A DNA stretch of 64,000 bases from Castanea sativa (Eukaryota; Streptophyta; Magnoliopsida; Fagales; Fagaceae), in NCBI RefSeq assembly GCF_040712315.1, contig NC_134016.1:50612986-50676985 (forward strand). The letters are read 5' to 3'. The position numbers and the translations under genes were made by a program. Positions 5,638 to 63,634 of this stretch are shown here, piece after piece. Numbering within the stretch: the first letter of the stretch is position 1; every line of letters starts with the position of its first letter. The notes under the pieces are model-generated. The model ran no database searches. It worked only from the letters and a program-made list of their open reading frames with translations, and was not told the DNA's origin.

Positions 5638-6209
5638 CTAAGGTTTTTGGCCTGGATTCCCTGGACGACGTGGTGGTGGTGGTTGAGGAGCTCTCTTCGC
5701 GACTGCCGCTCTTAGCCCTCGTTCATGTGGGTCTTTCACCCACCGTAAAGGCCGACTATTGCTTTGTTTTCTAATGACAGCATCAGATAATTTTTCCCCA
5801 TCTCTAACATAAGTTAATTTCTTCATATTTTCATCTGATTGTTACATCAAAGAACGAATCACATCATATTCAGAAAATGGAAAAAAATTGATACAAAACT
5901 TAAAAGATCATACATACAATTAGTTGGGGAGTAAAAAAGACATCAATCTTATTGTACTTCATAATATTCCACTACAATTGGTGGTTATAAGGTTGTTCTC
6001 TAACTAGCTAGTTGATCAGTTGAGATTTAGGAATTCCATGGTATATACATCGAACGTAACAAATTATGGAGGTTAAATTGATATATAAAAAGGAATAGAA
6101 ATCTTTTGTGCCATTTTAGGTATTTCATTTTACACTCTATCAATTACATGTGATAAGTTGGCTTTTTTTTTCCCCCTCTATTTTAAACACTAATTATTTT
6201 ATAAGGAAA

Positions 6210-6272
<63 letters not shown>

Positions 6273-6731
6273 GCAAGCTATGTTGGATGAAGTATAAAAT
6301 TTGGAAAATCCAAAATGGGAACAAAGAGTTTTATTCGTCAAGAAGAAATGTTCTTAATGAATATTGAAGTAGTGCAGTTTATAAATATTTATTCATTATA
6401 CACTATTCGTTGATCTCAATCTAATTGCCTATCTAGAGACTTCAAAGTTAGTTTGAAGACATTTAATTGATTGCAATAATTATATCATGCATCTAATATT
6501 TATCATTTCTTTTCCGATATATAAACCTCAGTGTATGAGACTCATACGTTGTAAGTGAAATAATACATATATCTTATGCATGCATGTAATATTTTCTCCA
6601 TCATTGTATAGTGCGTGAATATACATTTGCACATAACAGAAAAGTATAGTAGCTCTAGTACTTTTTGGAGACATTTAATATATATTTGGCATTTGCATCT
6701 AAATATGGAGGTCTACATCTTCTCAAAAGAA

Positions 6732-6767
<36 letters not shown>

Positions 6768-7033
6768 GGAGGTCTGCACATAACAGGGGAGTGAAATTAG
6801 AAAAGGCTCTCCATCTCTCTCTTTATCGTTCACACACACACTCACAGAAATAAACAACACAAACTTTTTGAACTTTGAAGCCATAGCTATACATGCGTGC
6901 CAAACAATATAAATTTAACAAAATCGGTGAAGCATTAATTAGTCGTACCGCTGAAAAACAAGCTCCATGAAAGAAATAGGGCAATAAGTACAAGAAAACC
7001 TAGGAGGAGGCCTCTCTTCTGCTCAAGCCTCAT
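5638..7033 (-). CDS. P1: small secreted proline-tailed peptide precursor (two exons)
   Basis: Exons are 7033-6949 and 5834-5638; intron 1114 bp. Exon 1 encodes a 28-residue signal peptide (MRLEQKRG, hydrophobic GLLLGFLVLIALF, then WSLFFS) and ends in phase 1. Exon 2 begins after CAATCAG and reads DENMKKLTYVRDGEKL, a charged spacer, and the tail APQPPPPRRPGNPGQKP before TAG. The joined frame is open for 93 aa. The closest paralog is P8, identical in exon lengths (85 and 197 nt). The donor is GTACGA instead of the GTAAGA of its siblings, so splicing may be less efficient. A basic KRAP junction before the proline tail would suit proteolytic release of a C-terminal peptide. Secretion is inferred. 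Family unknown; no match to CLE, CEP, IDA or PSY consensus is convincing. Confidence 0.7.
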
Positions 7034-7070
7034 GTTGCCTTGTGGAAGAAACCTGGTTAAAAGAATATCA

Positions 7071-7132
7071 TTATATATACCCAGCCATGTTTTGTTTGTA
7101 TGTTTCTTTGCAATTTCTTTAGCCCTTTTCCT
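7071..7132 (-). promoter_or_regulatory. P1 core promoter (TATA block)
   Basis: On the minus strand CTGGGTATATATAA lies about 40-50 bp upstream of the P1 ATG. It is preceded by an AAACATACAAAACATGG block and a pyrimidine/purine stretch that are conserved at P3, P4, P8 and P10. If transcription starts about 30 bp after the TATA box, the 5' leader would be only 10-20 nt. Confidence 0.6.
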
Positions 7133-7139
7133 TTTTTAT

Positions 7140-8320: not shown

Positions 8321-8371
<51 letters not shown>

Positions 8372-8860: not shown

Positions 8861-9680
8861 TTAGGGGTGTGGCCCTGTGGGTACTATAGGAGATGGTGGC
8901 GGTGGTTCAGGTGGTCGTCGCTCCTGCACTAGTTTTGCCGAATTGATTGGTGGGCCTTTCCCTTGTTTTATAGTTACAGCTCCAAGCAACTCCTCCCCAT
9001 GATCTCTTGCATGGTCATGATGAGGTAACTTCTCCATCTTTTCACCTGATTGTTGCATCAAAGAAATTACCATAACATATTCAAAGCAAAATAAATAAAT
9101 AAATAAATATTAGGTGTATAAGCTCATAAATGTCTGCTTGGATGCAGCTCTTTACCAAAAAGCTTTTTTTTTTTTTTTAATTGTTGAAAGCATTGTCGGA
9201 GTCAGGATTTCAGTTTCGTGGGGCAAGATAAAAATATTCTAAATATGTTAATCAACAACAAATTAACAACAACAAAATAAATAAACACTTGTAAACAAAT
9301 GTAATAACAAGTATATGTTTTTGTATGATTTAAATAAACAAACAAAAATAACCAATTCATAATTATTAACAATTAAAAGAAGAGAGTAATGTAAATACAT
9401 AAAGTTTAGAAATTTAATTGATTTGTTAAAATAAACTTAGAAAATAGATTCATCTGAAAGTATTAAGGGTATAGTAAATACCTCTAAAATTATATATATT
9501 TTTCACCATCTTGATTGATTCATAAAATATGTAGAACTCAACATTTATTTATCTATCCTTTTAGGTATTTAAAATTTGAGTTTATAACAAAATTTTCATA
9601 TTTTGAAACCATTAAAAGTCAAGTTAAGAAGTCAAGAGATAGAGGAGAAGAAAAATATAATAAAGGGTTGGAGGCTCTAA

Positions 9681-9739: not shown

Positions 9740-10966
9740 CCCACTAATTGAATTGTATGATAAAAAAGATTATCTTGAATTGTTCTTCATTGTTAGGTAA
9801 TTTAGCTTCATCCTAGGTATCTGATTCTATAAATAAATAAAAAAAGTAAAAAGTTTCATCCTATTCCTATCCAAAAGACTAAACAATTTTAATTGCATTT
9901 CACTATTCATTTAACTACTATTATGAATCTATGATATATATTTAAGAGACAAGCAAGAAATTCAAATGCTTGAATAGTGAAATGGGTAAAAAAAAAACAT
10001 TACAAGTGGGATAGGATAAAAAATCAAGAAAAAATAATACGTTGGTTACGTGGGTTAGGGAAGTTTGTTTCCCTTAATTTTTTATGTTTGTTTCTTTATC
10101 ATCTACTTCTTCTTCTTCTTATTTTTTTTTCTATGTCAGCGGGGTCAATTGCTTAAGAATATTTGAATATATATCATGATAATAGTACTTTGGGACTCTT
10201 TTTACAGAGTCAAAGGGGACAATTGCCCCCCTCACCCCCTCCTGGCTCCACCCCTGGTTGAAGGTTGATTAAAATATAACTCTTTAAGAAAATAAAAATT
10301 AAAAATATTGTTTTAAAAATTGTACATAAACAAATAAGTTAATAAGCTAAAAAAAAAGGCAAAGACAAAGTTACTCATATCAAATGAATAGTTGAATGTC
10401 AAGTTTTTCGCTGTTCAATTGAAAAGTAAGATGAACATCTGTAATAGCCTAGTTTTATATTATACTTCATAATTTCCACTATAATTTATGGCCTTAGGCT
10501 ATGCATCCTAGCAATCAACCTAGTGTGTGTATATATATATATTGAGGCTTGAGGTTTCAGGGTTCATCTGAAGCCATCTTATTAAGTACTCACATAAGAA
10601 AATTGGGAGAAGATGCTTGATAGTTGATATTGTCTTCCAAGTAGGTTTCAAGGTTTATATGAAGCCATCTCATTTAAATAGTAGAATCCATAATTATGTG
10701 AGAATGATACTTCAAGAAAACAAAATTCAAAGACATGTTTTCCATCTAATATGGAGTTGTAGACAGTAGTTGAAAGAAATTAGACTCACTCTCTTTCTAT
10801 CCTTAGCATATACATGCATGAATACACAGACGAATACAAACTTTGAAGCTAATGCGTACATAGATATATATACATATCAAAAAATATACTAAAAGTAATA
10901 CAAAAATAAATAAAAATTGCAAATCTTACCTACGAGGAGACATCTCTTGACTTCAAACCTGATCAT
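8861..10966 (-). CDS. P2: peptide-family paralog that has lost its signal-peptide core
   Basis: Exons are 10966-10930 (37 nt) and 9045-8861; intron 1884 bp. Exon 1 reads MIRFEVKRCLLV and then meets a GTAAGA donor, so 48 nt of exon 1 (16 codons, the hydrophobic core through WSLFFT) are missing relative to siblings. The phase is still 1, and the joined frame is open for 73 aa. Exon 2 follows ATCAG and reads GEKMEKLPHHDHARDHGEEL, then a spacer and the tail PPEPPPPSPIVPTGPHP before TAA. The tail ends TGPHP rather than GNPGPHP. Without a signal peptide the product would probably stay in the cytosol or the gene may be dying. A TATA-like GTATATATTG lies upstream near 11020. The in-frame deletion is what keeps it from being an obvious pseudogene. 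Confidence 0.5.
9687..9734. repeat. (TA)n tract in the P2 intron
   Basis: Uninterrupted TA dinucleotides inside the long P2 intron. The rest of that intron (9046-10929) is AT-rich, and I recognise nothing else in it. Confidence 0.85.
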
Positions 10967-12685: not shown

Positions 12686-13218
12686 CTATGGGCGTGGCCC
12701 AGGGTTTGCTCCTGGACGTGGTGGTGGTGGTAGAGATGCTCGCCTTTTAGGTGGTCTAATAATATAATGTTTTATAATGACAGCTCTAGATAATTCTTCC
12801 TCATCTTTGGCATAAGTTAGCTTCTCCATATTCTCACCTAATTATTGTGTCAAAATACACAACATATTTAAAAAAAATACATATATAATCAAATTTTTAA
12901 AAGCTCATAAATACAGTTAGTTGGGAAGAAAAATGGAAATTAATCTACAACTAATAGCCTTGTAAATATACTTTATAATTTCTACTACAATTTTTTTGTT
13001 GTAACTTGTTAGGTTATTGTACAATAATTAAAGTTGAATGTAGAATCTACATGTGAGAGGAAGGAGACCAATCTCCGATTTATGAGATACATTCTTGTCA
13101 CTATAGGGTGCATGAGTATTTAGCTAAAAAATAATAATACATGTAACTCTTGGATTTTTTGGAGACATTTCTAATTATTAATTGCACCTAATATTAGGGA
13201 GGTGTGGATCTCAAAAAA

Positions 13219-14069: not shown

Positions 14070-14248
14070 AGAAATACTGAATTCAATAGTATTTGTATTT
14101 CACCCTGAAATAATATACATGAGTGCTTTTTATATAAGAAGCATATGAGTGTTGTACAAGTAAATATGAGTACAGTACAAGTAGTACAATGTATGCTATA
14201 CAAGTAAGTAATCTAGTTGGGCTAAGCCCACAATATTATACGTTAACA
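14066..14248 (-). repeat. Copia 3' LTR
   Basis: Begins TGTTAGAAAT and ends CGTTAACA on the plus strand, so it has the TG...CA ends. It differs from the other LTR at about ten sites by eye. Confidence 0.93.
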
Positions 14249-14261
14249 GCCCCCCTCAAAC

Positions 14262-15571
14262 TCAAGGTAGATGTGAGACCAGCTTGAGGTTGTCAACCAA
14301 ATCACGAAGGCGTCCCTTAGAATAGGACTTGGTGAAGATGTCTGCAAGTTGATCTTTGGAGGAAACATAGAGGAGCTTGAGAGCACCATGAACAAGATGA
14401 TAACGGATAAAATGACAATCAATCTCAATACAGTCTTGCTGTCAGTGAGTCTAGCACGAGACAAAAGATCAGAAGCATACTTGGCTTGAGTAATATAAAG
14501 ACCATCTGAGGAACGAGTGATTTCAAGACCCAAGAAATAGCTAAGGTGGCCAAGATCTTTCATCTCAAATTGCTGACTGAGAAAATCCTTGAGTTCTTGT
14601 ATGCTACTAAGGTCATCACCAGTTATGATCATATCATCCACATAGAGGAGAAGTAGAATGGTGCCTTTATCAGTACGACGAAGAAATAAGGCAGTATCAT
14701 AAGGACTGGCAGTGTAACCCAAGCGAAAGATAGTAGAGCTAAATTTTGCAAACCAGGTTCGAGGAGCTTGTTTAAGACCATACAATGCTCGTCGAAGGTG
14801 GCAAACGTTGTTGGAGTCAATGGAGAGACCTAGAGGAGGTTGCATGTAAACTTCTTCACTCAAGTCCCCATTAAGGAATGCATTTTTAACATCCATTTGA
14901 AAAAGATCCCATTTTCTAGCAGCAGCAACGGCCAGGAAGGCACGAACAGATGAGATGCGAGCAACTGGAGCAAAGGTCTCTTCATAATCAATCTCATACT
15001 CCTGTGTAAAACCTTTTGCAACAAGACGAGTCTTATAGCGCTCAATGGACCCATCTGAGCGAGTTTTAATCTTGTAGATCCACTTGCAACCAACCACAAA
15101 CTGTCTAGGAGGGAGAGTAACTAAGTCCCAAGTATGGTTTTTGGTTAATGCATCAAGTTCCTCTTTCATTGCAATTTTCCATAAAGGGTCAGTGGATGCC
15201 TCACAATATGTTTGAGGCTCGTGGAGTGTAGCAAGTGCAGTGTAACAATGATAATCAAGTAAATGTGTAGGAATGGATCTTACCCGGGTTGAGTGACGAG
15301 GTGGAATGTATTGTGGAGGTGGAAGGTCTTGTGGAGGATCTTCAGGCGGAGCAAAAGCGGGGGACCCGGGTTCGAGTTGGGGTAGCTCGTCATCAATCTG
15401 CTCATCTTCGACCTGTCTAGAAGAGACATTAAAAGGATCTGGTGTTTGAATAGAGAAGTCCAAAGGAGGATCAAGTGGATTTGGAGAAGGAACATGAGAC
15501 TCCTCTAGAAAGACTTCAAGTACAGATGAGGTAGTGAGGGAAGAACGAAAATGAGAGAGTTCAACAAACAA
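14262..15571 (-). pseudogene. Copia reverse transcriptase joined to the extreme end of RNase H
   Basis: The RVT_2 domain is well kept: RLVAKGFTQ, the MDVKNAFLNGDL and ALYGLKQAPR motifs, and the catalytic YVDDMIITG. After LLSRARLTDSKT the frame jumps, at about 14430-14436, to the last 55 or so residues of the RNase H region (IEIDCHFIRYHLVHGALKL, then DQLADIFTK). These are in the next frame and end at TGA 14262-14264. Roughly 200 residues of RNase H are absent, so this copy is replication-dead. Residue counts are estimates from family knowledge. Confidence 0.88.
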
Positions 15572-15685
15572 GCGATGTTCCCAGAAGACAACATTACGAG
15601 AAACACAAAGGCGATAAGAGATAGGATCATAACATCGATACCCCTTTTGTGTTTCGCCATAATCAAGGAAACAGCAAAGTCTAGA

Positions 15686-16857
15686 TCAAGGCTCAAGTTT
15701 GTTGTGCTCATGAGGCTGAAGAAGAACGAAACAAGCAGATCCAAAAGAGCGAAGGTGATGATAGTCAGGGGGTGACCCAAAGAGGCGCTTATACGGAGTT
15801 TGATTATGGATGACAGTGCTTGGAATGCGGTTGATGGTGTGAACAGCATGAAGAGCAGCTTCACCCCAGAATGGAGGAGGAACCTTGGCAGAAAGAAGAA
15901 GAGTACGAACAATGTCAAGAATATGACGAAGTTTTCGTTCAGCTCTACCATTTTGCTGAAAAGTACCTGGACAAGTTAGATGATGTACAGTGTCATAGGA
16001 GTGTAACAAAGCTTGAAAAGCATATTGAGTGTATTCAAGAGCATTATCAGAACGAAAAATTTTGATTCTTTTGGAGAATTGGGTTTCAACCATTTTTGCA
16101 AAGTTACTGTATATTGGTAAAATTTCAGAACGAGATTTCATAGGGAATATCCAACTGTAACGAGAATAATCATCGATAAAAACAACAAAATATCGAGATC
16201 CACCAATACTAGCAACAGGAGAAGGTCCCCAAACATAGAATCATTATTATTAAAAGGTAAAGCTGGCTGTTTTCCTAACTGGCATGAAGTACAATCAAAA
16301 TTGTCTTTGGACACAGAACCTAACAAACCCTTAGAAGCTAACTATTGTACCCGAGAAAAGGGTGCATGACCAAGACGAGAGTGCCAAAGCGAGAGAGAGG
16401 GTAAGGAAGACACCGCAGCGGCAGCAGCAGCAACAGACATCGAAGCAACATGTGGAAGATGAAGATTGTCCACTGGAAACATACGCCTAACTCTAGGGCC
16501 GGTCCCAAGCTCTTGCCCCGTCCTCGGACCCTGCACAATACACCCAGAATAGTACAAAATAAGGCGATAACCTAGTTCAGCTAATTGTCCCACAGAACAC
16601 AAATTATAAGATAGGTCAGGAACATGGTAGACCCCAGGAACAGAGAGGTTGAAGGTTGAAACAAAACCAAGACTATTCACATGCATGGTGGAACCATCAG
16701 CTATGTAAATATTTAGGGGATGTGGAACAGGGTCAAGTTTGGAGAATAAGGACGAGTGAAGTGTCATGTGATTGCAACAGGCAGAATAAAAAAGCCAAGT
16801 TTGAGACTTACCGGGTAAAACTAAGAGAGCAGTGGAAAGAGATGCATTATCAGCCAT
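15686..16857 (-). pseudogene. Copia protease remnant and integrase
   Basis: The protease active-site region reads WLFYSACCNHMT where copia elements normally have an aspartate, so the catalytic D is gone. The GAG-pre-integrase HHCC zinc-binding part is visible as LWHSRLGH and DCTSCQLGKQ, with a stop at 16342. A frameshift near 16240 leads into the catalytic core. There FIDDYSRYSW, FRSDNALEY and QQNGRAERK carry the D, D and E residues. An expected segment between the zinc finger and VWGPSP is also missing. Confidence 0.85.
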
Positions 16858-16923
16858 ACAAACAGCTTGAGCTATGATCTCCTGTAGTGTAGTGGGCGAG
16901 AGGTTGATAGTGGATCTAGAAGA

Positions 16924-21087: not shown

Positions 21088-22128
21088 CTAGGGGAACGGA
21101 CTGCGGCCTGGAGGTGGGCGAGGACGCGGTGGTGGTGATGCAGGTACTCTATACGAACCGGGAATGCGCTTGGATAAGCCTACTCCAGACAATTCTTTTC
21201 CATCTCTTGCTTCAGTTAACTTCATGTTCTCATCTGGAGAATATAGATACCAAGTTAAAAAGATCATAAATACAGTTATTTGGGAAGTAAAAAGACATAA
21301 TTTTATTATACTTCATAATATTCCACTACAATTTTTGGTTAAAAGATTATTCTACATAGTTGTTCAAGTTGGGGTTTTTTTTTTTTCTTTTCTTTTCTTT
21401 TATTAATTTATTCTTTCTTGCTTGAAGCCTAATTGTTCAAGGGAAGTTCTAAATGAATATTGGATTGTTGTGTTTTACAAGCGGCAAAATTATAGAATAC
21501 TCTAGGAGTAAAATAAATGTATACACCCCACTCTAACATGAATATTGGATGATTTATCATAAATTTAATTAACGTGATCCACTATCATGTGAAAAGATGA
21601 AGTATGCATTTATTGTACTTTTGAAATATTCTATAATTACCCTCATAAGTGTTTACTTCATTATACACTATTCATTTATCATAATCTAATTGTGTGCATG
21701 GAGGCTTCAGACTTAAGAGTTAGTTTTGTCTTTGTATTTATAGATGCGTTGGAAAATCCTAGTACTTTGTCAAAATTGGTGGTATTCATTAAATTGTATT
21801 AGGGCTAAGTTTAAATTGTATTAGGCAAGGTTCAAGTCATAAGGTGCTCAAAAATGACAAAGTTATGATATGCTTATAGTTGAGGAGTTGTCTTTCGTAC
21901 CCTAACGAATTTCCCAGTGAAATTTTCTTTATTGAAAAGTAGACATGGGGCATCAAAACAGACACAAATTTGAACAAATTTAAAATTGAAATGAGTGAGA
22001 GATAGGGGAGATTGCTCAAGGACTTGATATCCGAATCTTATTAGAAAAATGGTTTATGCTAGGTTTCAACCCTATTTTTTGCAACCATATAAAACACTTT
22101 CTTAAACAAAAAAATAACAATAATAATG

Positions 22129-22179: not shown

Positions 22180-23884
22180 GTAAACTCATTGAGATAATTA
22201 TGTGGTTTCAAGAAAGACGTAAAAACTCAAGGTGTATATATATATACCTTGAGTTTTTAAGTCTTTCTTGAAACCACATAATTATTTCAATGAGTTTATT
22301 GTAAAATAGATCTTCATGAAGGTACCTTCGAATATACTAGAAGTTCTGGTTCGTATGAAGAAAATCGCTATAGAAGAATTTCAGAGTAGGGATGGCAATG
22401 GGGCGGGGCGGGGCCGAAGGATGGGATCTTCGCCCCCGCCCCGTATAGATTTTTCTTGCCCCATCCCTGCATGACGGGAAAAATTTCTTGCCCCATCCCC
22501 GCCCCTTAAGGCCCCGCGAAGACCCGCGAAGCCCCGCCCTATACCATAAAACTTTATTTCTTGTTAATTTTCCCTATAACTATTACCATTTTTTCAAATA
22601 AAATGAAATGTTTCAATATTAAAAATATACTTGAAATTATAAATAAATTTATCCTATCAAATCAAACTAATTTTTAGCAAAAACTAAATAATATTATCTA
22701 AATGTTTAACAAGACAATGTCATAACAAAAATCTCATAGTATGACACAAAAATCTCATATTATGTTAATGATGAACAGTAAGTTGAGAAAGACATTTGAA
22801 TCATGAATGAAAAGACAAAAAAAAGAGTTAAAATCGGTACCTTATTTCCAACTTTGCTTGAGAAAAAAGAGAGGTAGAACCACGTTAGGTAGAATAAAAT
22901 AAGTTGATGATATTTTTGTTTAAATAGTAGGATTTTAGAGTATGAAAAAATTATAACTTAATCCTTATTAATGGGAGGTGGGGCGGGGATGGGGTGGGGT
23001 GGGTTTAAAAAGTGTAAACCCATCCCCGCCCCGCCCCATGATGCGGGTCTAAAATCTCGCCCCATCCCCGCCCCATCATATTTGCGGGGCGGGGAAAACC
23101 CGCACGGGGCGAAGCGGGAAGGGGCGGGTCAAGCGGGGCGGGGGAAAATTGCCATCCCTATTTCAGAGTTGTTGTGACTACTACTGTAGGAAGACAACTG
23201 AGTCGCTTTCAAAGGTTGCATAGAGAGTCTAGGCTACGAAGATTTAGTAAGTTCTAACTATTTGTAATTGTTTCTTCATAGTGGATTTTTAAGAGGATTG
23301 TTTTTGTCCCCATAGTACGTAGTTTTTCCTTTGAAGATTTACTTTATTGATTTTCCAATTCATCACCAAATCTTGTATTTTTACTTCTATATTATAGATC
23401 ATATAATTGAGATAAATTGATACTTAATTAATAATTATAGAGTACTTAATAATACTTCTAAACTATAATTTTCAATTTATATCAAAATATATTGGTTAGA
23501 ACACGGGTCAAAATAAAATTTTCAATTGGTTAGAACACATATGAGTAAAGATAAAATTTTCATTTTACAGCCATCTAATGCGCAATTTTCATTGGTTAGA
23601 ACACATGTTTAATATTCATTTGCATCTAATATGGTAATATACACAGAGCAGTTAAACGAAAGGCTCACCATACCGTACCTCTCTCTTTATCGTATTCCCA
23701 AATAAATAACACAAAATTTGAAGCAATAGCAATATATACATGCCAAAAAATATATAATTTAAAGAAAAAAGTGCTACTCTGAGTCTGAGATAGTCTTACC
23801 TGTGAAAAACAAGCTCCATGTAAGAGATAGGGCGGTAAGTAGAAGAAGACCAAGGAGTAGACCTCTATTGACCTTAGAACTCAT
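21088..23884 (-). CDS. P4: small secreted proline-tailed peptide precursor (two exons)
   Basis: Exons are 23884-23800 (85 nt) and 21233-21088 (146 nt); intron 2566 bp, enlarged by a hAT MITE. Exon 1 encodes MSSKVNRGLLLGLLLLTALS and ends TWSLFFT, with donor GTAAGA. Exon 2 follows TCTCCAG and joins in phase 1 as DENMKLTEARDGKELSGVG. It continues with a SKR dibasic site and ends ASPPPRPRPPPGRSPFP before TAG. The product is 76 aa. P5 is its duplicate. The two differ far more in the tail than in the signal peptide or intron, as expected if the tail is the active and selected part. The tail lacks the GNPG motif of P1, P3 and P8, so P4 and P5 form a distinct subtype. Confidence 0.75.
22134..22175. 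repeat. (TA)n tract in the P4 intron
   Basis: Pure TA run next to the inverted repeat. It is absent or much shorter at the equivalent place in copy B. Confidence 0.85.
22181..22298. repeat. Near-perfect 53-bp inverted repeat (hairpin)
   Basis: Arms 22181-22233 and 22246-22298 are reverse complements with two mismatches, separated by a 12-bp TA-rich spacer. Copy B (near 34400-34460) contains only the right arm. It sits inside the P4 intron. Confidence 0.9.
22387..23160. mobile_element. Non-autonomous hAT element (MITE) in the P4 intron
   Basis: Terminal inverted repeats TAGGGATGGCAAT and ATTGCCATCCCTA are flanked by an exact 8-bp duplication TTTCAGAG (22379-22386 and 23161-23168). Eight-bp duplications and a TAGGGATG terminus are hAT (Ac-type) hallmarks. 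Both subterminal regions are packed with GGGGCGGGG-type motifs in a very GC-rich context, while the middle is AT-rich. There is no transposase. The paralogous site in copy B has a single TTTCAGAG (34533-34540), the empty site. Confidence 0.9.
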
Positions 23885-30235: not shown

Positions 30236-30267
30236 CCTTGTGGAAGAGATGCGTGAGTGAATAATAT
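30236..30267 (-). promoter_or_regulatory. Orphan peptide-family leader fragment
   Basis: TCACTCACGCATCTCTTCCACAAG-like sequence equals the leader just upstream of the P4 and P5 start codons, but exon 1 itself is missing. The promoter's TATA part is displaced to 30677-30760 by a solo LTR. Confidence 0.6.
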
Positions 30268-33348: not shown

Positions 33349-35256
33349 CTAGGAGAACGGTTTAGGGCCTGGTGGTGGGTGAGGACGCGGTGGTGGTGGT
33401 GCAGGTACTTTATACGGACCGAAACTACGCTTGGATGAGCCTACTCCAGACAATTCTTTTCCATCTCTTACTTTAGTTAACTTCATGTTCTCATCTGGAC
33501 AATATAGATTCCAAGTTAAAAATATCATAAATACAGTTATTTGGGAAGTGAAAAGACATAATTTTATTATACTTCAGAATATTCCACTACAATTTTTGGT
33601 TAAAAGATTATTCCACATAGTTGTTCAAGTTGGGGTCTTTTTTTTTTCTTCTTTTTATTCTTTCTTGCTTGAAGCTTCATTGTTCAAGGGAAGCTCTAAA
33701 TGAATATTGGATTGTTGTGTTTTATAAGCGGCAAAATTGTAGAATACTCTAGGAGTAAAATAAATGTATACGCCCTACTCTAACATGAATATTGGATGAT
33801 CTATTGTAAATTTAATTAGCATGATCCACTATCATTTGAAAAGATGAAGTATGCATTTATTGTACTTTTGAAATATTCTATAATTACCCTTATAAGTGTA
33901 CTTTATTATACACTATTCATTTATCGTAATCTAATTGTGTATGGAGGCTTCAAACTTAAGAGTTAGTTTTGTCTTAGTATTTATAGATGCGTTGGAAAAT
34001 CCTAGTACTGTGTCAAAATTGGTGGTATTCATTAAATTGTATTAGGGCTAAGTTTAAATTGTATTAGGCAAAGTTCAAGTCAAAAGGTGCTCAAAAATGA
34101 CAAAGTTATGATATGCTTATAGTTGAGGAGTTGTCTTTCGTACCCTAACGAATTTCCTAGTGAAATTTTCTATATTGAAAAGTAGACATGGGGCATCAAA
34201 ACAGACAAAAATTTGAACAAATTTAAAATTGAAATGAGTGAGAGATAGGGGAGATTGCTCAAGCAAAATTGCAGCGACTTGATTTCCAAATCTTATTAGA
34301 AAAATGGTTTATGCTAGGTTTCAACCCTATTTTTTGCAACCATATAAAACACTTTCTTAAACAAAAAAAAAATAACAATAATAATGAAATTATATATATA
34401 CCTTGAGTTTTTACGTCTTTCTTGAAACCCCATAATTATTTCAATGAGTTTATTGTAAAATAGATCTTCATGAAGGTACCTTCGAATACACTAGAAGTCC
34501 TGGTTCGTATGAAGAAAATCGCTATAGAAGAATTTCAGAGTTTTTGTGACTACTACTGTAGGAAGACAACTGAGTCGCTTCCAAAGGTTGCATAGAGAGT
34601 CTAGGCTACGAAGATTTAGTAAGTTCTAACTATTTGTAATTGTTTCTTCATAGTGGATTTTTTAGAGGATTGTTTTTGTCCCCATAGTATGTAGTTTTTC
34701 CTTTGAAGAGTTACTTTATTGATTTTCCAATTCATCACCAAATCTTGTATTTTTACTTCTATATTATAGATCATATAATTGAGATAAATTGATACTTAAT
34801 TAATAATTATAGTGTACTTAATAATACTTCTAAACTATAATTTTCAATTTATATCAAAATAAATTGGTTAGAACACGAGTCAAAATAAAATTTTCAATTG
34901 GTTAGAACACATATGAGTCAAAATAAAATTTTCATTTTACAGCCATCTAATGCGCAATTTTCATTGGTTAGAACACATGTTTAATATTCATTTGCATCTA
35001 ATATGGTGGTATACACAGAGCAGTTAAACGAAAGGCTCACCATACCGTACCTCTCTCTTTATCGTATTCCCAAATAAAGAACACAAAATTTGAAGCAATA
35101 GCAATATATACATGCCAAAAAATATAAAATTTAGAGAAAAAAGTGCTACTCTGAGTCTGAGATAGTCTTACCTGTGAAAAACAAGCTCCATGTAAGAGAT
35201 AGGGCCGTAAGTAGAAGAAGACCAAGGATTAGAACTCTATTGACCTTAGAACTCAT
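33349..35256 (-). CDS. P5: small secreted proline-tailed peptide precursor (two exons)
   Basis: Exons are 35256-35172 (85 nt) and 33494-33349 (146 nt); intron 1677 bp. Exon 1 encodes MSSKVNRVLILGLLLLTALS and ends TWSLFFT, donor GTAAGA. Exon 2 follows GTCCAG and reads DENMKLTKVRDGKELSGVG. A SKR dibasic site, SFGPYKVP and the tail APPPPRPHPPPGPKPFS follow, before TAG. The product is 76 aa. It is the duplicate of P4: 3 differences in 85 exon-1 sites against 17 in 146 exon-2 sites (12 amino-acid replacements, 2 silent codons), counted by hand. Both remain fully open, which argues against neutral decay. Confidence 0.75.
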
Positions 35257-38866: not shown

Positions 38867-39619
38867 CTAGATACAATCTAATCTCCACAGGCTTTCAAAG
38901 AACAACAACAAAATCCTATGAATGAAAATAGGATGAAAAAAAAGAGCATGAGCAATAGATGAACTCCTATACATTTCGTTCAAAGAACGAAGAAACAGAT
39001 GAGAAAAACTAATAGGAGCATCCGTAACCAAAGCATACAAAAATACATATCGCTCCAAAGGAATGGTGTGCAGATGCAAAATAGGCCATAGGGAATGACA
39101 TTCTATCCTAAAGATAAGATAGTTAGACTCAGTGAGCTCAGTAGAAGTGATTCGAGGATCAGAACCCCACCGGATAGAAGTACCGGTGATGTAGGACATG
39201 ATGTCGTCTAGGGGAGGAGACACATTATAGGGGTAAACAGGATGCTGAACAAGAGGCACCCCAAGAGCATTAGCCCCTACCGAAGGAGTAATGGTATACT
39301 CATCACCACGAATCCAACTCCTCACAAGAGTGCCGGAATCATAAGGGTGAACAGAGAGGTTCGAGTAGAACTCTCTAATCAAGATGGTAGGAGGAGGAGC
39401 ATCAAAATCCAGGAGAGGCAACCAGCCTCGATGCTCAAAGTTTTCCCTAATGGCAGGATCAAGCTCATCTAACAAAACCCTACACTCAGCCCAAATTTTC
39501 CACTTAGTGTTAAGGGTCTCAAAAGTCTCTTAATGCTTCTCACTTAAGAACCTATCACTCTCAAAAGAAGGATTAGAAGTGGAGATGGATGACCTATTGG
39601 ATCTAGTCTTCCTAGGCAT
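38867..39619 (-). pseudogene. Second ORF of the LTR element (putative plant transposon protein domain)
   Basis: Starting at ATG 39619 the minus strand reads MPRKTRSNRSSISTSNPSFE. One in-frame TAA occurs at 39530-39532, where a CAA codon is likely mutated, and then about 220 open codons run to 38867. Motifs include FEHRGWLPLLDF, REFYSNLSVHPYD and VRGxxxxxTPS-like WIRGDEYTITPS. This pattern recalls the 'putative plant transposon protein' domain (PF20167) often seen in LTR-element debris; that name is from memory. It lies just before the polypurine tract, at the position of an extra 3' ORF. Function unknown. Confidence 0.65.
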
Positions 39620-44387: not shown

Positions 44388-44629
44388 TAGGAGCATTTTT
44401 TAACCAAAAAAAAAATGAGGATCCCAAATAGGGAAACCCCTGAAATAGTAATATAGATATCTCACTTTTTTTTTTTTTAGAGTTGTTGCATTATTTTAAA
44501 TGAACCAAAATACCATAATACATGTTATTTGGCAAACTCTAAACACTCATGTTAACAAAAAGAAAAAAAAGTAAAAAGTGAATGAACCATATACCATAGC
44601 CACTACTATTTTGACATAGTATATTTTGC

Positions 44630-44785
44630 CTACCAGTGGTGTGGCCCTAGGTTCCCTGTAGGAGGCGGGGGCGGTGATTGAGGTATGGGTATTGGGTAGT
44701 CACTTGGTTGTCTTTTCTCATGGGACTGCACATTGTAAATAGCTTCGGAATTCTTCTCCATCTCTTGCAAAAGTTTATTCTCCAT
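44630..44785 (-). pseudogene. P7: decayed exon 2 of the peptide family
   Basis: The proline tail is kept (PQSPPPPPTGNLGPHHW then TAG). The start MENKLLQEMEKNSEA shows a 1-nt and then a 2-nt loss relative to P10, which scrambles about ten residues before the frame is restored. A further internal deletion follows. The acceptor CAG is mutated to CAT. The promoter survives at 45719-45830, but exon 1 is deleted between the two. Confidence 0.7.
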
Positions 44786-44868
44786 TTTCAGACATGATTT
44801 GCATCAAAGAAATTATCACTACAATTCAGACAATAAAAAAGAGATATATACAAAGTTTAAAAGATCTC

Positions 44869-45365: not shown

Positions 45366-45718
45366 AATTTATATATATATACACACACACACCAAATCTA
45401 AAAGATCATAAGTACAATTGGGAAGTAAAATGGAAATTGATCTGTAAATAGCCTTGTAATATATACTTCATAATTTCTACTACAATTTTTGGTTGTAAGG
45501 TCATTCAACTTTAGTTATTGTACAATGTGGAATATACACATGAGAGGAAGGATACTAATCTCTGATGTATGAGATACATTCTTGTCACTATAGGTTACTA
45601 TAGGGTACATGAGTATTTAGCTAGAAAGACTTTAATATATATATATATAGCTCTAGTATTTTTTAGAGACGTTTCTAATTATCATTTGCACCTAATATTG
45701 TGGAGGTGGCTCTGCCTC

Positions 45719-45830
45719 GTGGAAGAGATGTGTGAGTGAATATCACAATATATATGCAGTGCAGCCATGCTTATCGCTTAATTTCTCTGCAGTTTCTTTA
45801 GTCCTTTTCTTTTATTAATTCGTCAAAGTT
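45719..45830 (-). promoter_or_regulatory. Orphan promoter of P7
   Basis: Leader CATCTCTTCCACGAGG, a TATATATTGTGATATTC run and the AAACTGCAGAGAAA block are kept. Directly downstream on the minus strand the sequence jumps to the intron block (GGAGGT), so exon 1 has been deleted. Confidence 0.6.
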
Positions 45831-49290: not shown

Positions 49291-49310
49291 AATTTGAAGG
49301 AATTCTACCT

Positions 49311-51295
49311 ATGGCTAGAAGTGTTGGAAACAACGATGTTGTTGCAAGAGAAGAATCAGCTAGAAGTGCTAGAAACTACGGAGCTATTGCAAGAAAAGAG
49401 TCAGTTGGAAGTGCAAGAAACAATGGAGCTATTGCAAGAGAAGTGTTGGCTAGAAGTGCTAGAAACTATGGAGCTATGGCAAGAGAAGAGTCAGCTAGAA
49501 GTACTAAAAACTATGGAGCTATGGTAAGAGAAGAGTCAGAGTCAGCTAGAAGTACTAAAAACTATAGAGCTATGGTAAGAGAAGAGTCAGCTGGAAGTGT
49601 TAGAAATAATAAAGCTATTGAAAGAGAAGAGTCTGGAACAAGTGAAAGTGGTGGCTCACGAGTTGGTAACTAAACCACTACATTTTTTGAAATGTCTATC
49701 AAATTACCATTCTAATATTTGCAACCATCTATAGTTGACATGTGTCTATCAATTTTTTTGACTACACAAGAAATAAGAAAGGGCGAGAGGCTACACAAAA
49801 TCTAAAACTTGCAAAACTTTTACAAAGGAAAGGTTCCCAATCATATGGAAAAGGGGAAGACCAGTAGGGAAATACTCTATAGTATTCAAATCGGAGTGTA
49901 CTGCCCTTGTTAGACAGATTAGTATAGTACCTTTACAAGTCAAAGATTGGAGAGAGGTGCCTTATCAAAACAAAAGAAAGCTATTTGATTATATATTGGT
50001 GCGTTATATAAAAGTGTTTTGAAATAAAAGTTTCTTTATAATGCACAAATGTAATCCTTATTAGTTTTCATTTTTTAGGGATGCTTCATTGTTGAGGGTC
50101 AAGAGACTCTTGTTTGGTGGCAAATGAATAGGTCATACAAAAATTACTGAAGCTCCTTGAAGAAAAAATGATTAAAGCCATATGAGGAGGATCCTGAGGC
50201 ACTAGAAATTTTGCCACCTAACATGGTGGATGATGATTGGAACTATCTTGTGAATTTATGGAGCAATAAGGATTGAAAGGTACTACTACATATGGAAATT
50301 ATTATCTTGTATTATTTTATAGAGAATTAAAAATATTTTTTAATCCAATGTATGTTTTTGAATGTAGACAATGTGTGATAAAAACAAGTATAGTCGTTCC
50401 AAAGACTTTATCATTCACATTTCTGGATCAAAAAGCTTCCAACAATGAAGTGAAGAACAGGTTTGTATATATCATTTTCTCAATCTTTGAAACTTAATTT
50501 TTTCAAGATAAAATATTGTCGCATAGTTATTTATGGTGCTTGACATTTTATGGAATGTCTATACTTTGTGTTGTTTATATGATAGACATTTTATGGAATG
50601 TCTATGCTTTGTGTTGTTTAATGATAGAGGGAGAAAACTGGAAAAGATCCTAGCTGACTTCAATTATTTGAAATCACACATACGAGATCTAATGGGCAAG
50701 CTACAAATGAAACTACACAGGAAGCATTGGTATGGAAATTCCTAAAAATGCTTGTATAACTTGTTATTAAGATTTATTTTTATATGCTACTAGAAAATGT
50801 TTTTTTTATGTGCTATTAGCAAATGTAGTATAAAATTATAATGCTCTTTTAATGCAAATGAAATTTAAGAGACTTACTACTAAAGTGGCTGAAAGGTCTT
50901 TGCAAATGTCCGACGATGAAATGTTTGTAAAGGTATTTGGACCTGAACATCATGGTCATGTTTATGGTTATGGTGATGGTATTAGTCGTACAGGGTTATA
51001 GGGTTCCTCTTCATCTACTATTCGTGACCTCCAAATACAATTGAAAGAATCTAAGGAAAGACGTAAGGAGAATGATGCAAACCTTTTGAGGCAATTGAAA
51101 GAATCTGAGGAAAGAAGCAAGGAAAATGATGCTAACCTTCTAAGGAAATTGAAAGAATCTGAGGAACACCGCAAGGAGAGTGATGCTAATATACAACTCT
51201 TGAAGGCACAAGTTAATCGGGTCGAGAGTTTGCTAGCACAAGTACTAAAAAACATGGCCCTATTTGAGCTAGCTCAATTTGATTGTTCTTCCTAA
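49311..51295 (+). pseudogene. Ptta/En-Spm-type transposon gene remnant (CACTA-associated)
   Basis: The plus strand starts MARSVGNNDVVAREE, followed by about seven tandem 15-residue units like ARSARNYGAIAREES (49314-49625). Downstream pieces include GRPVGKYSIVF and VKDWREVP (about 49840-49960), GSKSF near 50420, GKDPS and THTRSNGQAT (about 50640-50700), and DDEMFVKVFGPEHHGHVYGYG (50915-50975). It ends with three 18-residue LKESxERxKENDANLL coiled-coil repeats. This order matches the C-terminal part of plant Ptta/En-Spm (Transposase_24) proteins. Stops and frame shifts, plus possible introns, break it. Confidence 0.7.
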
Positions 51296-55889: not shown

Positions 55890-57249
55890 CTAGGGGTGTG
55901 GCCCTGGGTTCCCTGGACGACGTGGTGATGGTGGTTGAGGTTTTTTCCTCTTGAGTTCCACTTTTAGCCCTCGCTCATGTGGGTCTTTTGCCCATGGTAA
56001 AGGTGGGCTATTGATTTGTTTTACAATGACCGCTTCATATAATTTTTCCTCATCTCTTACGTAAGTTAACTTCTCTATATTTTCACCTGATTGTTACATC
56101 AAAGAACTTATCATAACATATTCAAAATAAAAAAGAAATTGATACCAAACTTAAAATATTCTACATATTTTGATCACATGAATGTTACATCAAAGAACTT
56201 TCACAACATATTCAGAAAATAAAAAAGAAATTGATACCAAACTTAAAAGATCGTTCATACAGTTAGTTAGGAAGTAAAAAAGACATCCATCTTATTTTAT
56301 TCATAATATTCCACTACATTTGTGGTTGTAAGGTTGTTCTCGACCTAGTTGGTTGATCAGTTAAGATTTATGAATCCCACGATATATCATCATACGTCAA
56401 TCATAACAAATTATAGAGGTTAAATTGATACATCCAAAAGAAATAGAAATTGTCTGTCCCATTTTAGTTATTTTATTCTATACTCCAAACAATTACAAGT
56501 TGTCATGTGTTTGTGGTTTTTTTTTTTTTTTCCTTCAATTTTAAACACCGGTTATTTTAAAAAAAGAAAGAAATATGTTGTGCCAAGTTATGTTGGATGA
56601 AGTATAAAATGGAAAATCCAAAATGGGAACACCGGAATTTTATTCATCAAGAAGAAATATTCTTAGTGAATATTGGAGTGGTGCAATTGATAAATGTTTG
56701 CTTCATTATACACTATTCATTGATCTCAATCTAATTGTCTATAGGGAGGCTGGAGACTTAAAAGTTAGTTTGAAGACATCTAATTGATTGCAATAATTAT
56801 CTCATGCATCTAATATGCATCATTCCTTTCACAATGTATAAAGCGCATAGGGTATGAATTCTATAGTTGTATGCATGTCATGTTTTCTCCGTCACTCTAT
56901 GATGCATGAATATTTAGCTAGCAAATTAAAGAAAAGGATTGTAGCTCTAGTACTTTTTGGAGACATATTTAATAGACATTTGCATCTAAATATGGAGGTC
57001 TACACACAACAGGGGAGAGAAAAATAGAAAAGCTCTCCATCCCTCTCTCTGTTTCGTTCACACACACACACACAAATAAACAACATAAGCTTTGATCTTT
57101 GATAGCTATACATACATGCCAAACAATATAAATTTAACGAAAAAGGTGCTGCTATTAGTCTTACCGGTGAAAAACAAGCTCCATGAAAGAAATAAGGTAA
57201 TAAGTACAAGAAAAGCTAGGAAGAGGCCTCTCTTCAGCTCAAGCCTCAT
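55890..57249 (-). CDS. P8: small secreted proline-tailed peptide precursor (two exons)
   Basis: Exons are 57249-57165 (85 nt) and 56086-55890 (197 nt); intron 1078 bp. Exon 1 encodes MRLELKRGLFLAFLVLITLF and ends WSLFFT, donor GTAAGA. Exon 2 follows CAATCAG and joins as GENIEKLTYVRDEEKLYEAV. It carries WAKDPHERG and the basic KRKK, and ends PQPPSPRRPGNPGPHP before TAG. The product is 93 aa, with the same exon sizes as P1. Exon 2 has no methionine codon near its start (ATA replaces ATG), so its 65 open codons can only be expressed by splicing to exon 1. That the frame stays open without a local start supports the spliced model. Role unknown, presumably an apoplastic peptide. Confidence 0.76.
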
Positions 57250-60035: not shown

Positions 60036-60039
60036 ACGT

Positions 60040-60430: not shown

Positions 60431-60919
60431 GCTACGCTAATGTGACTAAACAAAAGTGTAGCAACAACTAATGCTATTTTAAATATTATATTGATGATAG
60501 AGAGAATTGAATATAGTATGTAAGGAAACAATTTTGAGAATTAAGTTATTCATTGTCAATAAAGAAAAAAAATGTGGAAAATTGCTAAGAAAACATGCTG
60601 ATGATGATGTGATGCAACAAGAACTTTGCAAAACTAAATGGAGAGATTCCATATCATTATATATAGTATAGATTGTTCATGCCAAAATTAAATTTATAAT
60701 ATTTTGATATTGGTTTTTGTGTATATAACAGAAAAAGATGTCAATATTTGCATATTGGTGACATTTACATTACATTTAAGATCAAGAGCCTTGTAATTTA
60801 ACTATATAACAACTCTTGATGTTCTTAATGGAAACATTTAAAATTCAAATCATGTCTACTCCGACTATTGAATTATTAAGAGGGAGAGATGACTAAAACA
60901 TGAAGTACACGGAATACAT

Positions 60920-61860
60920 ATATAAGGGTGTAATCGGTTCGGTTCGGTCGATTTTTTTAGTTTTGGACAAACGAAACCGAAATTTTTGATTTCTGAAATT
61001 CTCAACCAAAACCAACCAAAATAATTAGAAATCAATCGGTTTCAGTGGTATTTCGGTTTCCGTCGGTTTTTGGTTAAGCACATGGGGCTATTGATTTTTC
61101 CAAAACTCTAAGTCAACATCACAGTCACAAAAAGAAAATAACAACTCAGCATCACATTGAGTTATCGATTTTTTAATAAGAAAATAACAATTCAACATCA
61201 CAGTCACGGATTCACAAAAAATAGCATTGATTCAATATCAAACAAAACCCAAAATACAAAAAAAAAAAAAAAAAAAGGTTATCAAGAAATTAAAAAGAGA
61301 GAGGGTCACCGTGAGAATGAAAAGATCAAGCTGTGTGGAGAGGACGGTGTGGGGGGGCGGCGTGTGGAGGCCAGTGGCAAATGTCGACTGATGGAGCGAG
61401 GCTGGTGTGTGTGAGAAGGAGTGATGGAGACTTTGTGTGAGAGAGTGATGGAGGCGTGAGGGAATGATAGAGGCATGTTAGTGAAAGTGGGGTAGGTAGG
61501 GTAATGGTAGGGTTTTTATTTTCTTTTTTTTTCAATTAGTTTCTTTTTAACTTAATTAATTTAAGTTAATTAGTTTAATTTTAGTTAGTTAATCTAACTT
61601 ATCTAAGGGGCAGTGGACTTGAGTAATTTTGGCAAGGCCAAGCCTAAACGCCAAACCCAAGTTGTTCAATATATTTGCAAGGCCCATGTATATATAAAAT
61701 ATAATATAAATTATATATTTATTTTGGTTCGGTTTCGGCCGGTTTAGTGCATGAATACCTGCCATCGAAACCGAAACCGAATTTTTCGGTTTCAAGAAAT
61801 GGGAAACTGAACCGAATCAAAACCAAACCGAAATTTTGAACACGGTTCGGTCGGTTGTTT
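60920..61860. mobile_element. Candidate foldback/hAT-like element with GGTTCGG ends
   Basis: Left side carries ATCGGTTCGGTTCGGTCG and AACGAAACCGAAATTTTTG. The right side carries the inverted CGAAACCGAAACCGAATTTT and AACACGGTTCGGTCGG. The inverted ends enclose AT-rich sequence and a GAG/GTG-rich stretch at 61300-61480. No exact target duplication was found, and its right edge lies against the decayed tail of P9. Confidence 0.5.
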
Positions 61861-61899
61861 CAATGTTCCGGTTTTTCACACACGACCCTCTGTTCCCCA

Positions 61900-62043
61900 T
61901 CGGGCATGGTGGTGGTTATTCAAAAATTAGTCCTCATTCTAGTTTTGCAAAGCGGATAGGTGGGTTGTTCCTTTGTTTTACAATGACAACTCGAGACAGT
62001 TTTTGGCTCTCTTTTGCGTAAGTTAATTTCTCCATCTTGTCAT
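61900..62043 (-). pseudogene. P9: exon 2 with premature stop, no exon 1
   Basis: After CAATCAG at 62044-62050 the frame reads DDKMEKLTYAKESQKLS and then VVIVKQRNNPPIRFAKLE, and stops at TGA 61934-61936. Siblings run on into the proline tail at this point. Beyond the stop a CCACCACCATG and GGGAAC remnant of the tail is visible out of frame. No exon 1 lies between it and P10, although the acceptor is intact. Confidence 0.65.
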
Positions 62044-62630
62044 CTGATTGTTGCATCAAATAAATTACCACAACACATTCAGAAAATAAACAAGAAATAG
62101 ATACAAAGTTTAAAATATAATAAACAGTTTGAAATTGGATATAAAATAACGGTGCCAAGTTCATCACAGTTGATTTGGAGGTAAAAAAAAAAAAAACAGA
62201 CGTCGATCCCTAGTACCCTTGTATTGTACTTACTAAAAGTGCTTGCTTGCTAAAAGTTTTGAATGCCTATTAAGATTACTAAAAATGCTTGCTTGCTAAA
62301 AGTTCTGATTGGGTTTTGCAATAGAGTGGTGCTTATTACACACCACTTAACACACATAAAAAGAATTGAAAGAGTGTCATTTTCCAAAATCTCAAAAGAA
62401 AAGAATGTAATTACTCAAAAAATAATAATATTTCACATTTTTAGAATGTAATTACTCAAAAAATAATAATATTTCACATTTTTTAGAGTAGTTGGATTCT
62501 TTTAAATGAACCAAAATACAGGGTATTTGGCAAACTCTAAACACTCATGTTAACAAAAAGAAAAAGAAAAAAAAGGGAGTGAACCATATACTGATGACCC
62601 TAATATTTTGACATTAGTACTTTATGCCTA

Positions 62631-63634
62631 CTACTGGTGTGGCCCTGGGTTCCCTGTACGAAGTGGTGGCGGTGATTGAGCAATACGTTGTCGCATGGTT
62701 GTCTTTACTCGTAGGACTCTTGCACGTGGTAAAGGTGGGCTGTTGCTTTGTTTTATAATGATAGCTTCGGATAATTCTTCTCCGTCTCTTGCAGAAGTTA
62801 AATTCTCCATTTTCACACCTGATTTGCATCAAAGAGATTATCACTACAATTCACGCAATAAAAAAGAGATATATACGAAGTTTAAAAGATCAAATATAGA
62901 GTTGGTTGGGAGATAAAACAGAGATCTATCGCTAGTTAGTAGCCTTGTATCGTACTTCATAATTTTCCACTGCAATTTTTGGTCCTAAGGCTATTCTAAT
63001 GCTATGAGAGGGAATATATATATATGTGTGTGTGTGTGTGTGATATACGAGATACCTTCGTCATTTGTTGCATGCTTGAGTTTAGCTAACAAAACTAAAG
63101 ATCATAAGCTATAGAATTTTTTGGAGACATGTATCATGGAGTTGTGCACAAAGAAGATGAATGAAAAGGCTCTTATCCCCTCTATTCGTCGTTCACACAT
63201 GAAAGGAAATTTAGACCTCGGTTGATTATTCTTAATCTACATTACCAATTTAATTAATTAAATTAGTTATGCAATGGATTTTAATTTAGTGCATAGTGGG
63301 CACTGTGAACAACTATATCGAAAAAATTGAATACAACGGAAAATAAATTTTGACATAGCAATAGGTTACAATTGGACAAACCTGACGAGAAAAACTCTTT
63401 GGGAGTTTATTGATCACCATCGAATGGAAGAATTTACTAATTAGAGTCGAAGTTTACAATATAAGAATATAACCCCAATCCTAGTGTTGCTAACTACACT
63501 ATATACATGCCAATTAATATAAATTTATATGGAAAAAGGTGCTACAATAATTACTCTTACCAGTGAAAAACAAGCTCCATGCAATAAAAAGTACAAGAAA
63601 ACCTAGGACTGCCTCTCTTCAGCTCAAACATCAT
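62631..63634 (-). pseudogene. P10: peptide-family gene with frameshifted signal-peptide exon
   Basis: Exons are 63634-63561 (74 nt) and 62818-62631 (188 nt); intron 742 bp. Exon 2 in its family frame is intact: VKMENLTSARDGEELSEAI, a spacer with RVLRVKTT and the tail SPPPLRTGNPGPHQ before TAG. Exon 1 starts MMFELKRG but has a 2-nt and a 9-nt loss, so the hydrophobic core is destroyed and the donor is in phase 2 instead of 1. Splicing at the intact GTAAGA donor would read exon 2 in another frame. That frame stays open past 62631, giving a basic, Thr/Arg-rich product without signal peptide. Promoter, donor and acceptor are otherwise good. Most likely a recent pseudogene. Confidence 0.68.

Follow-up and report, generated by a model that had tools for sequence, protein, structure and literature searches.

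A tandem array of two-exon genes predicted to encode small secreted precursors with a proline-rich tail in Castanea sativa and other Fagaceae

The 64,000-nucleotide stretch of Castanea sativa DNA analyzed here (the window; positions 50612986-50676985 of contig C4 in a 716-Mb genome) contains a repeated two-exon unit, in which a short signal-peptide-like exon is paired with a second exon that ends in a proline-rich tail. The unit had been noted in an initial annotation made from the letters alone; it is genuine, and the gene count given there needs correcting. The window covers about a quarter of a head-to-tail array that extends over 254 kb of C4 on a single strand, in agreement with the proposed growth in tandem. 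The units form a Fagaceae family of the secreted-peptide-precursor kind, which is unnamed as far as our searches reach. On balance, we read its members as Fagaceae-restricted two-exon genes for small secreted prepropeptides, from which the loosely conserved proline-rich tail is probably set free to act as a ligand in the apoplast, much as in HypSys or SCOOP.

Two-exon units in the window

The exon-1 and exon-2 repeats lie where they had been predicted, all on the minus strand. Each unit starts with an 85-nt exon 1, which a 650-2566-nt intron separates from an exon 2 that closes with the proline-rich end and a stop codon. Exon 1 provides the start codon, a basic N-terminus and a long hydrophobic stretch, and ends in phase 1. 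Seven two-exon copies had been claimed, of which five (P1, P3, P4, P5 and P8) are intact and give joined open proteins of 76-93 residues, whereas exon 1 is broken in P2 and P10. The three junctions named in advance (6949/5834, 13488/12837 and 57165/56086) are indeed phase-1 joins that give open proteins. The shared architecture holds for the exon-1 length, which is 85 nt in all five intact copies, and less strictly for the splice sites: the GTAAGA donor is found in four of the five (P1 has GTACGA), and so is the CAG acceptor (P3 has TAG). A TATA-like box is located 44-57 nt upstream of the ATG in all eight aligned copies; a scan for W-boxes and poly-A signals gave nothing consistent. The exons of the intact copies are as follows.

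6949..7033, minus strand: P1 exon 1, signal-peptide-like, 85 nt, donor GTACGA
5638..5834, minus strand: P1 exon 2, 197 nt, tail PPPPRRPGNPGQKP and stop; protein identical to the matching part of C. dentata P0002
13488..13572, minus strand: P3 exon 1
12686..12837, minus strand: P3 exon 2, tail PPPPRPGANPGPRP
23800..23884, minus strand: P4 exon 1, MSSKVNR subfamily
21088..21233, minus strand: P4 exon 2, tail SPPPRPRPPPGRSPFP
35172..35256, minus strand: P5 exon 1, MSSKVNR subfamily
33349..33494, minus strand: P5 exon 2, tail PPPPRPHPPPGPKPFS; the joined P5 protein and C. dentata P0027 differ in 2 residues
57165..57249, minus strand: P8 exon 1
55890..56086, minus strand: P8 exon 2, tail PPSPRRPGNPGPHP; joined protein 98% identical to C. 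mollissima CMV_024175 over 93 aa

We built nhmmer profiles from five exon-1 and seven exon-2 copies of the window, with exon 2 of P4 and P5 kept outside the exon-2 profile. The exon-1 profile recovered the five intact copies with E-values of 1.2e-49 to 1.5e-55, and the exon-2 profile recovered P1, P3 and P8 with E-values of 7.5e-49 to 3.1e-68. For exon 2 of P4 and P5 the respective values were 4.8e-8 and 3.7e-10.

P4 and P5 lie in duplicated segments (window ~19.0-24.5 kb and 31.3-36.0 kb), the copies being 11.4-12.3 kb apart. Over the stretch compared, aligned 100-column blocks are mostly 83-100% identical, and there is one long insertion in the P4 intron. In both genes the intron end next to exon 2 (window ~21234-21300 and 33495-33560) is open in frame and carries a second hydrophobic stretch that resembles the exon-1 end; many database contigs without an organism name are translated through an intron end of this type. 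An alternative start for the MSSKVNR subfamily inside the intron (VFTSQITVFMIFLTWYLYSP continuing into exon 2) was rejected as the main model, because the upstream start is absent or out of frame in the own-genome copies with this intron end that we examined.

Extent of the array and copies elsewhere in the genome

Matches to the family continue beyond the window, for ~179 kb on its left side and 10 kb on its right, an extension that the initial annotation overlooked. The outermost match on the left ends at 50433561 and the one on the right begins at 50687376, with no further match in the next 9.5 kb on the left or the next 6 kb on the right. When the whole genome was searched with an exon-1 pattern, it was found in 8 places, all of them on C4 within 212 kb, and the reversed control gave none. 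A protein search of the genome with a Quercus suber member produced 41 matches at E up to 1, including 37 on C4, all on the minus strand; with an array member there were 50 matches, 45 of them on C4 at 50.434-50.687 Mb and again all minus. The exon profiles gave 81 matches on C4, also exclusively on the minus strand (38 for exon 1 and 43 for exon 2), and three more on contigs C5 and C9. The C4 DNA examined amounts to 247,839 bases with gaps, including 50.458-50.466 Mb, and since several protein-search matches fall in that gap the array counts are lower bounds.

We accepted a gene model as intact if it had a phase-1 exon 1, a GT donor, an AG acceptor, an open exon 2 of at least 38 codons, and no intervening exon 1. 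Intact two-exon models are headed by 19 of the 38 exon-1 sites, and exon 1 is 85 nt long in 17 of these 19. Six of the 43 exon-2 matches were shorter fragments that were dropped or merged, and 9 of the remaining 37 have no open model. The length of exon 2 ranges from 146 to 335 nt across models, with the phase kept. Two C4 members have greatly expanded proline-rich repeats in exon 2 (L011:2688-3067 and L044:913-1086; 139 and 127 residues in total, respectively).

Outside the array, a diverged separate copy is present on the minus strand of contig C1 (81590306-81591963; L056:506-2163). Both of its exons are open, its donor is GTAAGA, and its exon 2 ends in EPPPSPGGPLGQNP, so that the tail has the same design as in the array. 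Partial copies were found on contigs C5, C9 and C11.

Coding evidence and selection

In permutation tests on pairs of window copies, 5 of the 8 pairs had fewer amino-acid changes than expected under neutral placement (P<=0.05). A codon-based analysis of the array was then restricted to the intact models. When four regions of the gene were tested singly, none had an omega (ratio of nonsynonymous to synonymous rates) clearly different from 1; the largest doubled log-likelihood difference (2dlnL) was 2.58, for the tail, with omega 0.75. Site models separate the codons better. On 87 columns, the log-likelihoods of the all-neutral, M1a and M2a models were -2912.3, -2872.4 and -2853.0 (2dlnL 38.8 for M2a over M1a), and M2a placed ~35% of codons in a class with omega 0.30 and 18% in one with omega 2.98. 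The result was retained on 75 codon columns (2dlnL 59.8 for M1a over all-neutral and 20.1 for M2a over M1a), on 55 gap-free columns (32.9 and 18.5, respectively), and in a 10-gene subset (19.5 and 18.1). Neutrality is thus rejected by the site models, with some codons constrained and others fast. Most of the fast codons fall in the C-terminal half, ahead of the tail as well as within it. These models were run with a custom codon script, with branch lengths scaled from a one-omega fit; they do not account for gene conversion among the paralogs, and the variable middle is aligned with some uncertainty.

Positive selection on the P4/P5 pair, initially considered from a pairwise omega of 1.4, was dropped because the permutation test gave 14 amino-acid changes against 14.1 expected; the 19-gene site models took its place. 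The earlier proposal is supported in that the units act like protein-coding genes, with one exon resembling a signal peptide.

Relatives in Fagaceae

A single-sequence protein search returned six clusters, with C. mollissima CMV_024175 at the top (98% identity over the full 93 residues). Two profile searches, the first of which scored only the 7981 candidates that had most words in common, increased this number to 54 and then 72 protein clusters at E up to 10, and 64 of the 72 have E up to 1e-3. An organism name is attached to 15 of the 72 clusters, and all 15 belong to Fagaceae: Castanea mollissima, C. dentata, Quercus suber, Q. robur, Q. lobata and Lithocarpus litseifolius, with the lineage checked for one species per genus. 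As the search can reach a protein only if it has short words in common with the query, this distribution does not prove a Fagaceae-only spread. The join between exon 1 and exon 2 is at the same place, or one residue off, in 12 of the 15 named clusters; the exceptions are P0030 and P0071, which contain exon 2 only, and P0054, which is joined elsewhere.

Some members carry consecutive locus numbers (04G209900, 210000 and 210100 in C. dentata; 04G169600, 169700 and 169800 in C. mollissima), which fits the same array on chromosome 4 in these species. The claim that open reading frame finders miss these genes needs to be restricted: NCBI has hypothetical-protein models for several chestnut and oak copies, but our searches retrieved fewer of them per genome than our 19 intact models. 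Annotation may miss many members, given the three consecutive loci each in C. dentata and in one C. mollissima assembly versus the 19 intact models.

Searches of Pfam, PDB and Rfam with the family or the window gave no meaningful match to the family; the PDB matches (FtsB and other low-complexity proteins, best E 0.007) were discarded as not meaningful. Literature searches with motif strings and gene names found no paper, and topic searches, whose coverage excludes most subscription journals and bioRxiv preprints, found none on the family. The earlier statement that no family with this tail is known agrees with the Pfam and literature searches that were made.

Anatomy of the predicted precursors

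The tripeptide [A/S/T]-W-S follows the hydrophobic core in 17 of the 19 array models, and A, S or T occupies the position three residues before the likely cut (-3) in 19 of 20 exon-1 proteins. By its sequence, the exon-1 end looks like a signal-peptidase site. The AlphaFold model of the Q. suber member P0009 shows a helix at residues 3-26 with high confidence and low confidence beyond it; in such a model, low confidence past residue 26 is as expected for a mostly disordered propeptide.

At the other end of the chain, PP[P/S/T] occurs within the last 18 residues of all 19 models, and 17 of them fit a relaxed tail pattern. Cysteine is absent beyond residue 24 in every model. The basic cluster proposed to precede the tail was recovered in most members: the last basic pair is located 15-34 residues from the end in 16 of the 19 models, and among 45 protein rows examined the pair has this position in 36 and is elsewhere in 9. 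Fourteen of the 19 models have a cationic predicted mature part; across all 19, its net charge ranges from -6 to +9.

Broken copies, relics and neighboring sequence

The remaining copies in the window have lost parts of the unit. P2 and P10 retain an open exon 2 next to a damaged exon 1; the C. mollissima annotation has an intact P10-like protein, P0016. Three lone exon-2 relics and one orphan exon 1 had been described, and profile search and alignment confirmed all four as relics. Two further relics upstream of lone exons were overlooked by the initial annotation.

10928..10964, minus strand: P2 exon 1, cut down to 37 nt, hydrophobic core gone
8861..9045, minus strand: P2 exon 2, open, tail PPPPSPIVPTGPHP
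63561..63634, minus strand: P10 exon 1, 74 nt, with a frameshift and a 9-nt deletion
62631..62818, minus strand: P10 exon 2, open; protein the same as the matching part of C. mollissima P0016
25026..25241, minus strand: exon-2 relic, probably P6; nhmmer E 3.2e-52 (copy in the profile); splice acceptor lost
44626..44833, minus strand: exon-2 relic, probably P7; nhmmer E 1.5e-33 (copy outside the profile); acceptor lost, frame shifted
61882..62086, minus strand: exon-2 relic, probably P9, with stop codons
58341..58385, minus strand: orphan exon 1, truncated
45713..45776, minus strand: promoter/leader relic upstream of the 44.8-kb relic; nhmmer E 6.3e-10
30236..30263, minus strand: short promoter/leader relic upstream of the 25.2-kb relic; nhmmer E 0.0022, a weak match

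The rest of the array is largely transposon-like, as judged by Pfam in the window (Copia domains, a plant transposon protein and gag) and by eye outside it. A degenerate Copia-type retrotransposon occupies positions 14246-16923 of the window on the minus strand, with reverse transcriptase, integrase and Pol barrel domains spread over several open frames. Also on the minus strand, the positions 38870-39529 and 42543-43202 encode a domain of a plant transposon protein and one of Copia gag, and the two lie between direct repeats of 300 nt (at 37788 and 43727) with 94% identity. On the plus strand, a 131-codon open frame at 49278-49670 consists of 45-nt tandem repeats (ARSARNYGA-like) and has no Pfam match. 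At the left edge of the array there is a fragment of a transketolase C-terminal domain (L055:3427-3975, plus strand).

Comparison with known peptide families

We compared the family with known plant peptide families by motif tests on 77 proteins (the 72 retrieved and 5 window copies) and on the 19 array models, drawing also on the review PMC11756074. The IDA/IDL and PIP/PIPL genes are described as intronless, with an SGPS motif and, for PIP/PIPL, GxGH (PMC4526919). The Fagaceae family resembles them in having a secreted precursor with a variable part and a conserved C-terminal motif, but all 19 of its intact models were built with an intron, and neither the SGPS core nor the GxGH end occurs in any of the 77 proteins or the 19 models. 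The CEP end SPG[I/V]GH (on CEP, see PMC11649690) is likewise absent from both sets.

According to PMC4776436, CLE motifs keep R2, P5, G7, P8, P10 and H12, CLE peptides are hydroxyprolinated, and the poplar CLE genes are scattered, with only 13 of 50 containing introns. The C-terminal position of the peptide is common to both families, and a P-x-G-P-x-P core is found in the last 40 residues of 5 of 21 own-genome and 5 of 64 retrieved sequences, a frequency that proline- and glycine-rich tails could reach by chance. R2 is absent by eye from the five own-genome sequences with this core, and none of the 77 proteins or 19 models contains the H12 pattern GPNP[L/I]H; a looser H12 pattern (LH, or HN/HH at the end) occurs in 1 of 21 own and 4 of 64 retrieved sequences, one of which ends in GPHH. 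At the level of sequence, the family therefore does not pass the motif tests for IDA, PIP, CEP and CLE (H12).

Other parallels come from lineage-specific families, a class in which a 2026 review lists SCOOP (serine-rich endogenous peptides of Brassicaceae), HypSys (hydroxyproline-rich systemins) and others (PMC13157962). The PROSCOOP genes are described as encoding small secreted precursors in two or three exons, with 14 Arabidopsis genes in two tandem clusters that contain transposon remains; the same source reports no homologs outside one plant family and places the SCOOP motifs away from the C-terminal extremity (PMC6382344). The genes studied here are similarly two-exon, head-to-tail and family-restricted, with a signal peptide as judged by sequence features. 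They differ from the Brassicaceae family in that all 15 named matches are from Fagaceae, and in that their proline motif is at the C-terminal end. HypSys precursors are reported to be secreted and to carry PPSPx units in Solanaceae and Convolvulaceae (PMC8591736). By motif and description the possible likeness consists of PPSP near the C-terminus of a predicted secreted precursor. Of the 19 models, 6 have PPSP among their final 18 residues, and PPSPx falls within the final 40 residues of 8 of the 21 own and 10 of the 64 retrieved sequences. In contrast to HypSys, the Fagaceae precursors have one C-terminal tail, in which hydroxylation is a prediction, and belong to another plant order. RISP has four cysteines and a gene beside that of a leucine-rich repeat (LRR) receptor, as described in PMC4756128; RISP and poplar orphan proteins accompany LRR receptors, and RISP is said to evolve under positive selection (PMC3975113). 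Like RISP and the SPUFs of poplar LRR receptor-like protein (LRR-RLP) clusters, which are orphan, lineage-restricted, clustered small tree proteins, some of them secreted, the present family has so far been seen in a single lineage of trees; unlike RISP, its models lack cysteine beyond residue 24, and the C4 DNA examined yielded no recognizable LRR gene.

Proposed function and alternative explanations

We propose the following scheme. Exon 1 would encode a signal peptide, probably cut after [A/S/T]-W-S, so that the precursor enters the secretory pathway. Exon 2 would encode a pro-region and a C-terminal proline-rich tail of ~14-16 residues with the loose form PP[PS]x..P..G..G[P/H]xP. The tail prolines may be hydroxylated and perhaps glycosylated, and a protease would release the tail, in many members by cutting behind a basic pair located 15-34 residues before the C-terminus. 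The freed tail would then act outside the cell as a ligand of a surface receptor. Tandem duplication together with fast change near and in the tail would yield many variants. The parts of this scheme differ in strength. Directly observed are the gene structure, the array, the distribution of database matches, and constraint on some codons alongside fast evolution of others. That the family encodes a secreted precursor is highly probable, whereas the chance that it yields a processed signaling peptide is about even. We infer splicing and secretion of the family; cleavage, modification and a ligand role are likewise suggested by the anatomy of the precursors and the workings of known plant peptide families, and a phytocytokine role is plausible.

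Several observations weigh against this reading. The whole-gene omega of the 19 array genes is 0.91, which is not different from 1 (2dlnL 0.92), and three of the eight window pairs (P1/P8, P4/P8 and P4/P5) lack a purifying signal at P of 0.05. The spliced join is absent from all 57 clusters that lack an organism name, two of which (P0006 and P0051) read through the donor; the case for splicing thus rests on gene models rather than reads, and the NCBI gene models of the family may themselves be predictions. The tail motif is loose, with the strict form PPPPxPxGxxGPxP in only 2 of the 19 models, and the basic pair before the tail is missing in 3 of the 19. The 19-residue mean hydropathy is mostly 2.0-2.6, at which the hydrophobic stretch could be an uncleaved anchor. 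Finally, no LRR receptor gene was recognized in the 247,839 C4 bases with one LRR pattern in six frames, supplemented by open frames judged by eye and by Pfam on ten window frames and one left-edge frame; the pattern matched twice, in copies of one duplicated fragment without a gene around it.

Among the alternatives, the least probable by far is that the units are a non-coding repeat whose open frames are accidental. It would account for the half of exon-1 sites without an intact model and for the whole-gene omega near 1, but the site models, made with intact models only, reject neutrality, the exon lengths keep phase although exon 2 varies from 146 to 335 nt, and Quercus and Lithocarpus have gene models joined in the same way. 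A coding origin leaves room for secreted proteins that are not ligands, such as small wall-associated or antimicrobial proteins that would bind wall polymers or microbes through a polyproline tail, and we regard this as the most serious competitor, though an unlikely one. Polyproline tails, tandem growth and fast codons fit defense or wall proteins as well, the predicted mature part is mostly cationic (14 of 19 models), and poplar RISP is reported to inhibit rust growth as well as to trigger alkalinization of cell cultures (PMC4756128). The wide spread of net charge among the 19 models (-6 to +9) speaks against it, as does the placement of the proline motif near the chain end in every one of them, as in ligand precursors.

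Two further explanations appear improbable to a similar degree. In one, the product is a type II membrane microprotein, with exon 1 as an uncleaved signal anchor and the tail tethered outside the cell. The high 19-residue hydropathy and the AlphaFold helix at 3-26 are compatible with an anchor, but in 17 of 19 models the core is followed by a small residue at -3 and a serine at -1, which resembles a signal-peptidase site. In the other, the family is a highly diverged branch of CLE, CEP, IDA/PIP, HypSys or SCOOP. The P-x-G-P-x-P core of 5 of 21 own-genome sequences matches P5, G7, P8 and P10 of CLE, PPSP, the start of the HypSys PPSPx unit, is present in the P2 tail and near the end (final 18 residues) of 6 of 19 models, and PROSCOOP genes are reported to have two or three exons and to form tandem arrays with transposon remains. 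Yet short proline/glycine motifs can match by chance, SGPS, the GxGH end, SPG[I/V]GH and GPNP[L/I]H are absent from all 77 proteins and 19 models, and Pfam gave no match to those families.

Under the preferred explanation of a released apoplastic ligand, a broader possibility can be put forward more tentatively, and we hold it as a conjecture: this one 254-kb Fagaceae array may be an undescribed system of variant hydroxyproline-rich ligands of ~14-16 residues, which would be under diversifying selection, be perceived by surface receptors, and serve immunity or cell recognition, for example between pollen and pistil. Secreted peptides steer plant immunity and development, and lineage-restricted families such as SCOOP, HypSys and RISP have been found case by case. 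A large array that evolves this fast in oaks and chestnuts and has a recognizable C-terminal motif would give forest-tree biology a set of testable candidate ligands, with their exons, tails and relatives named.

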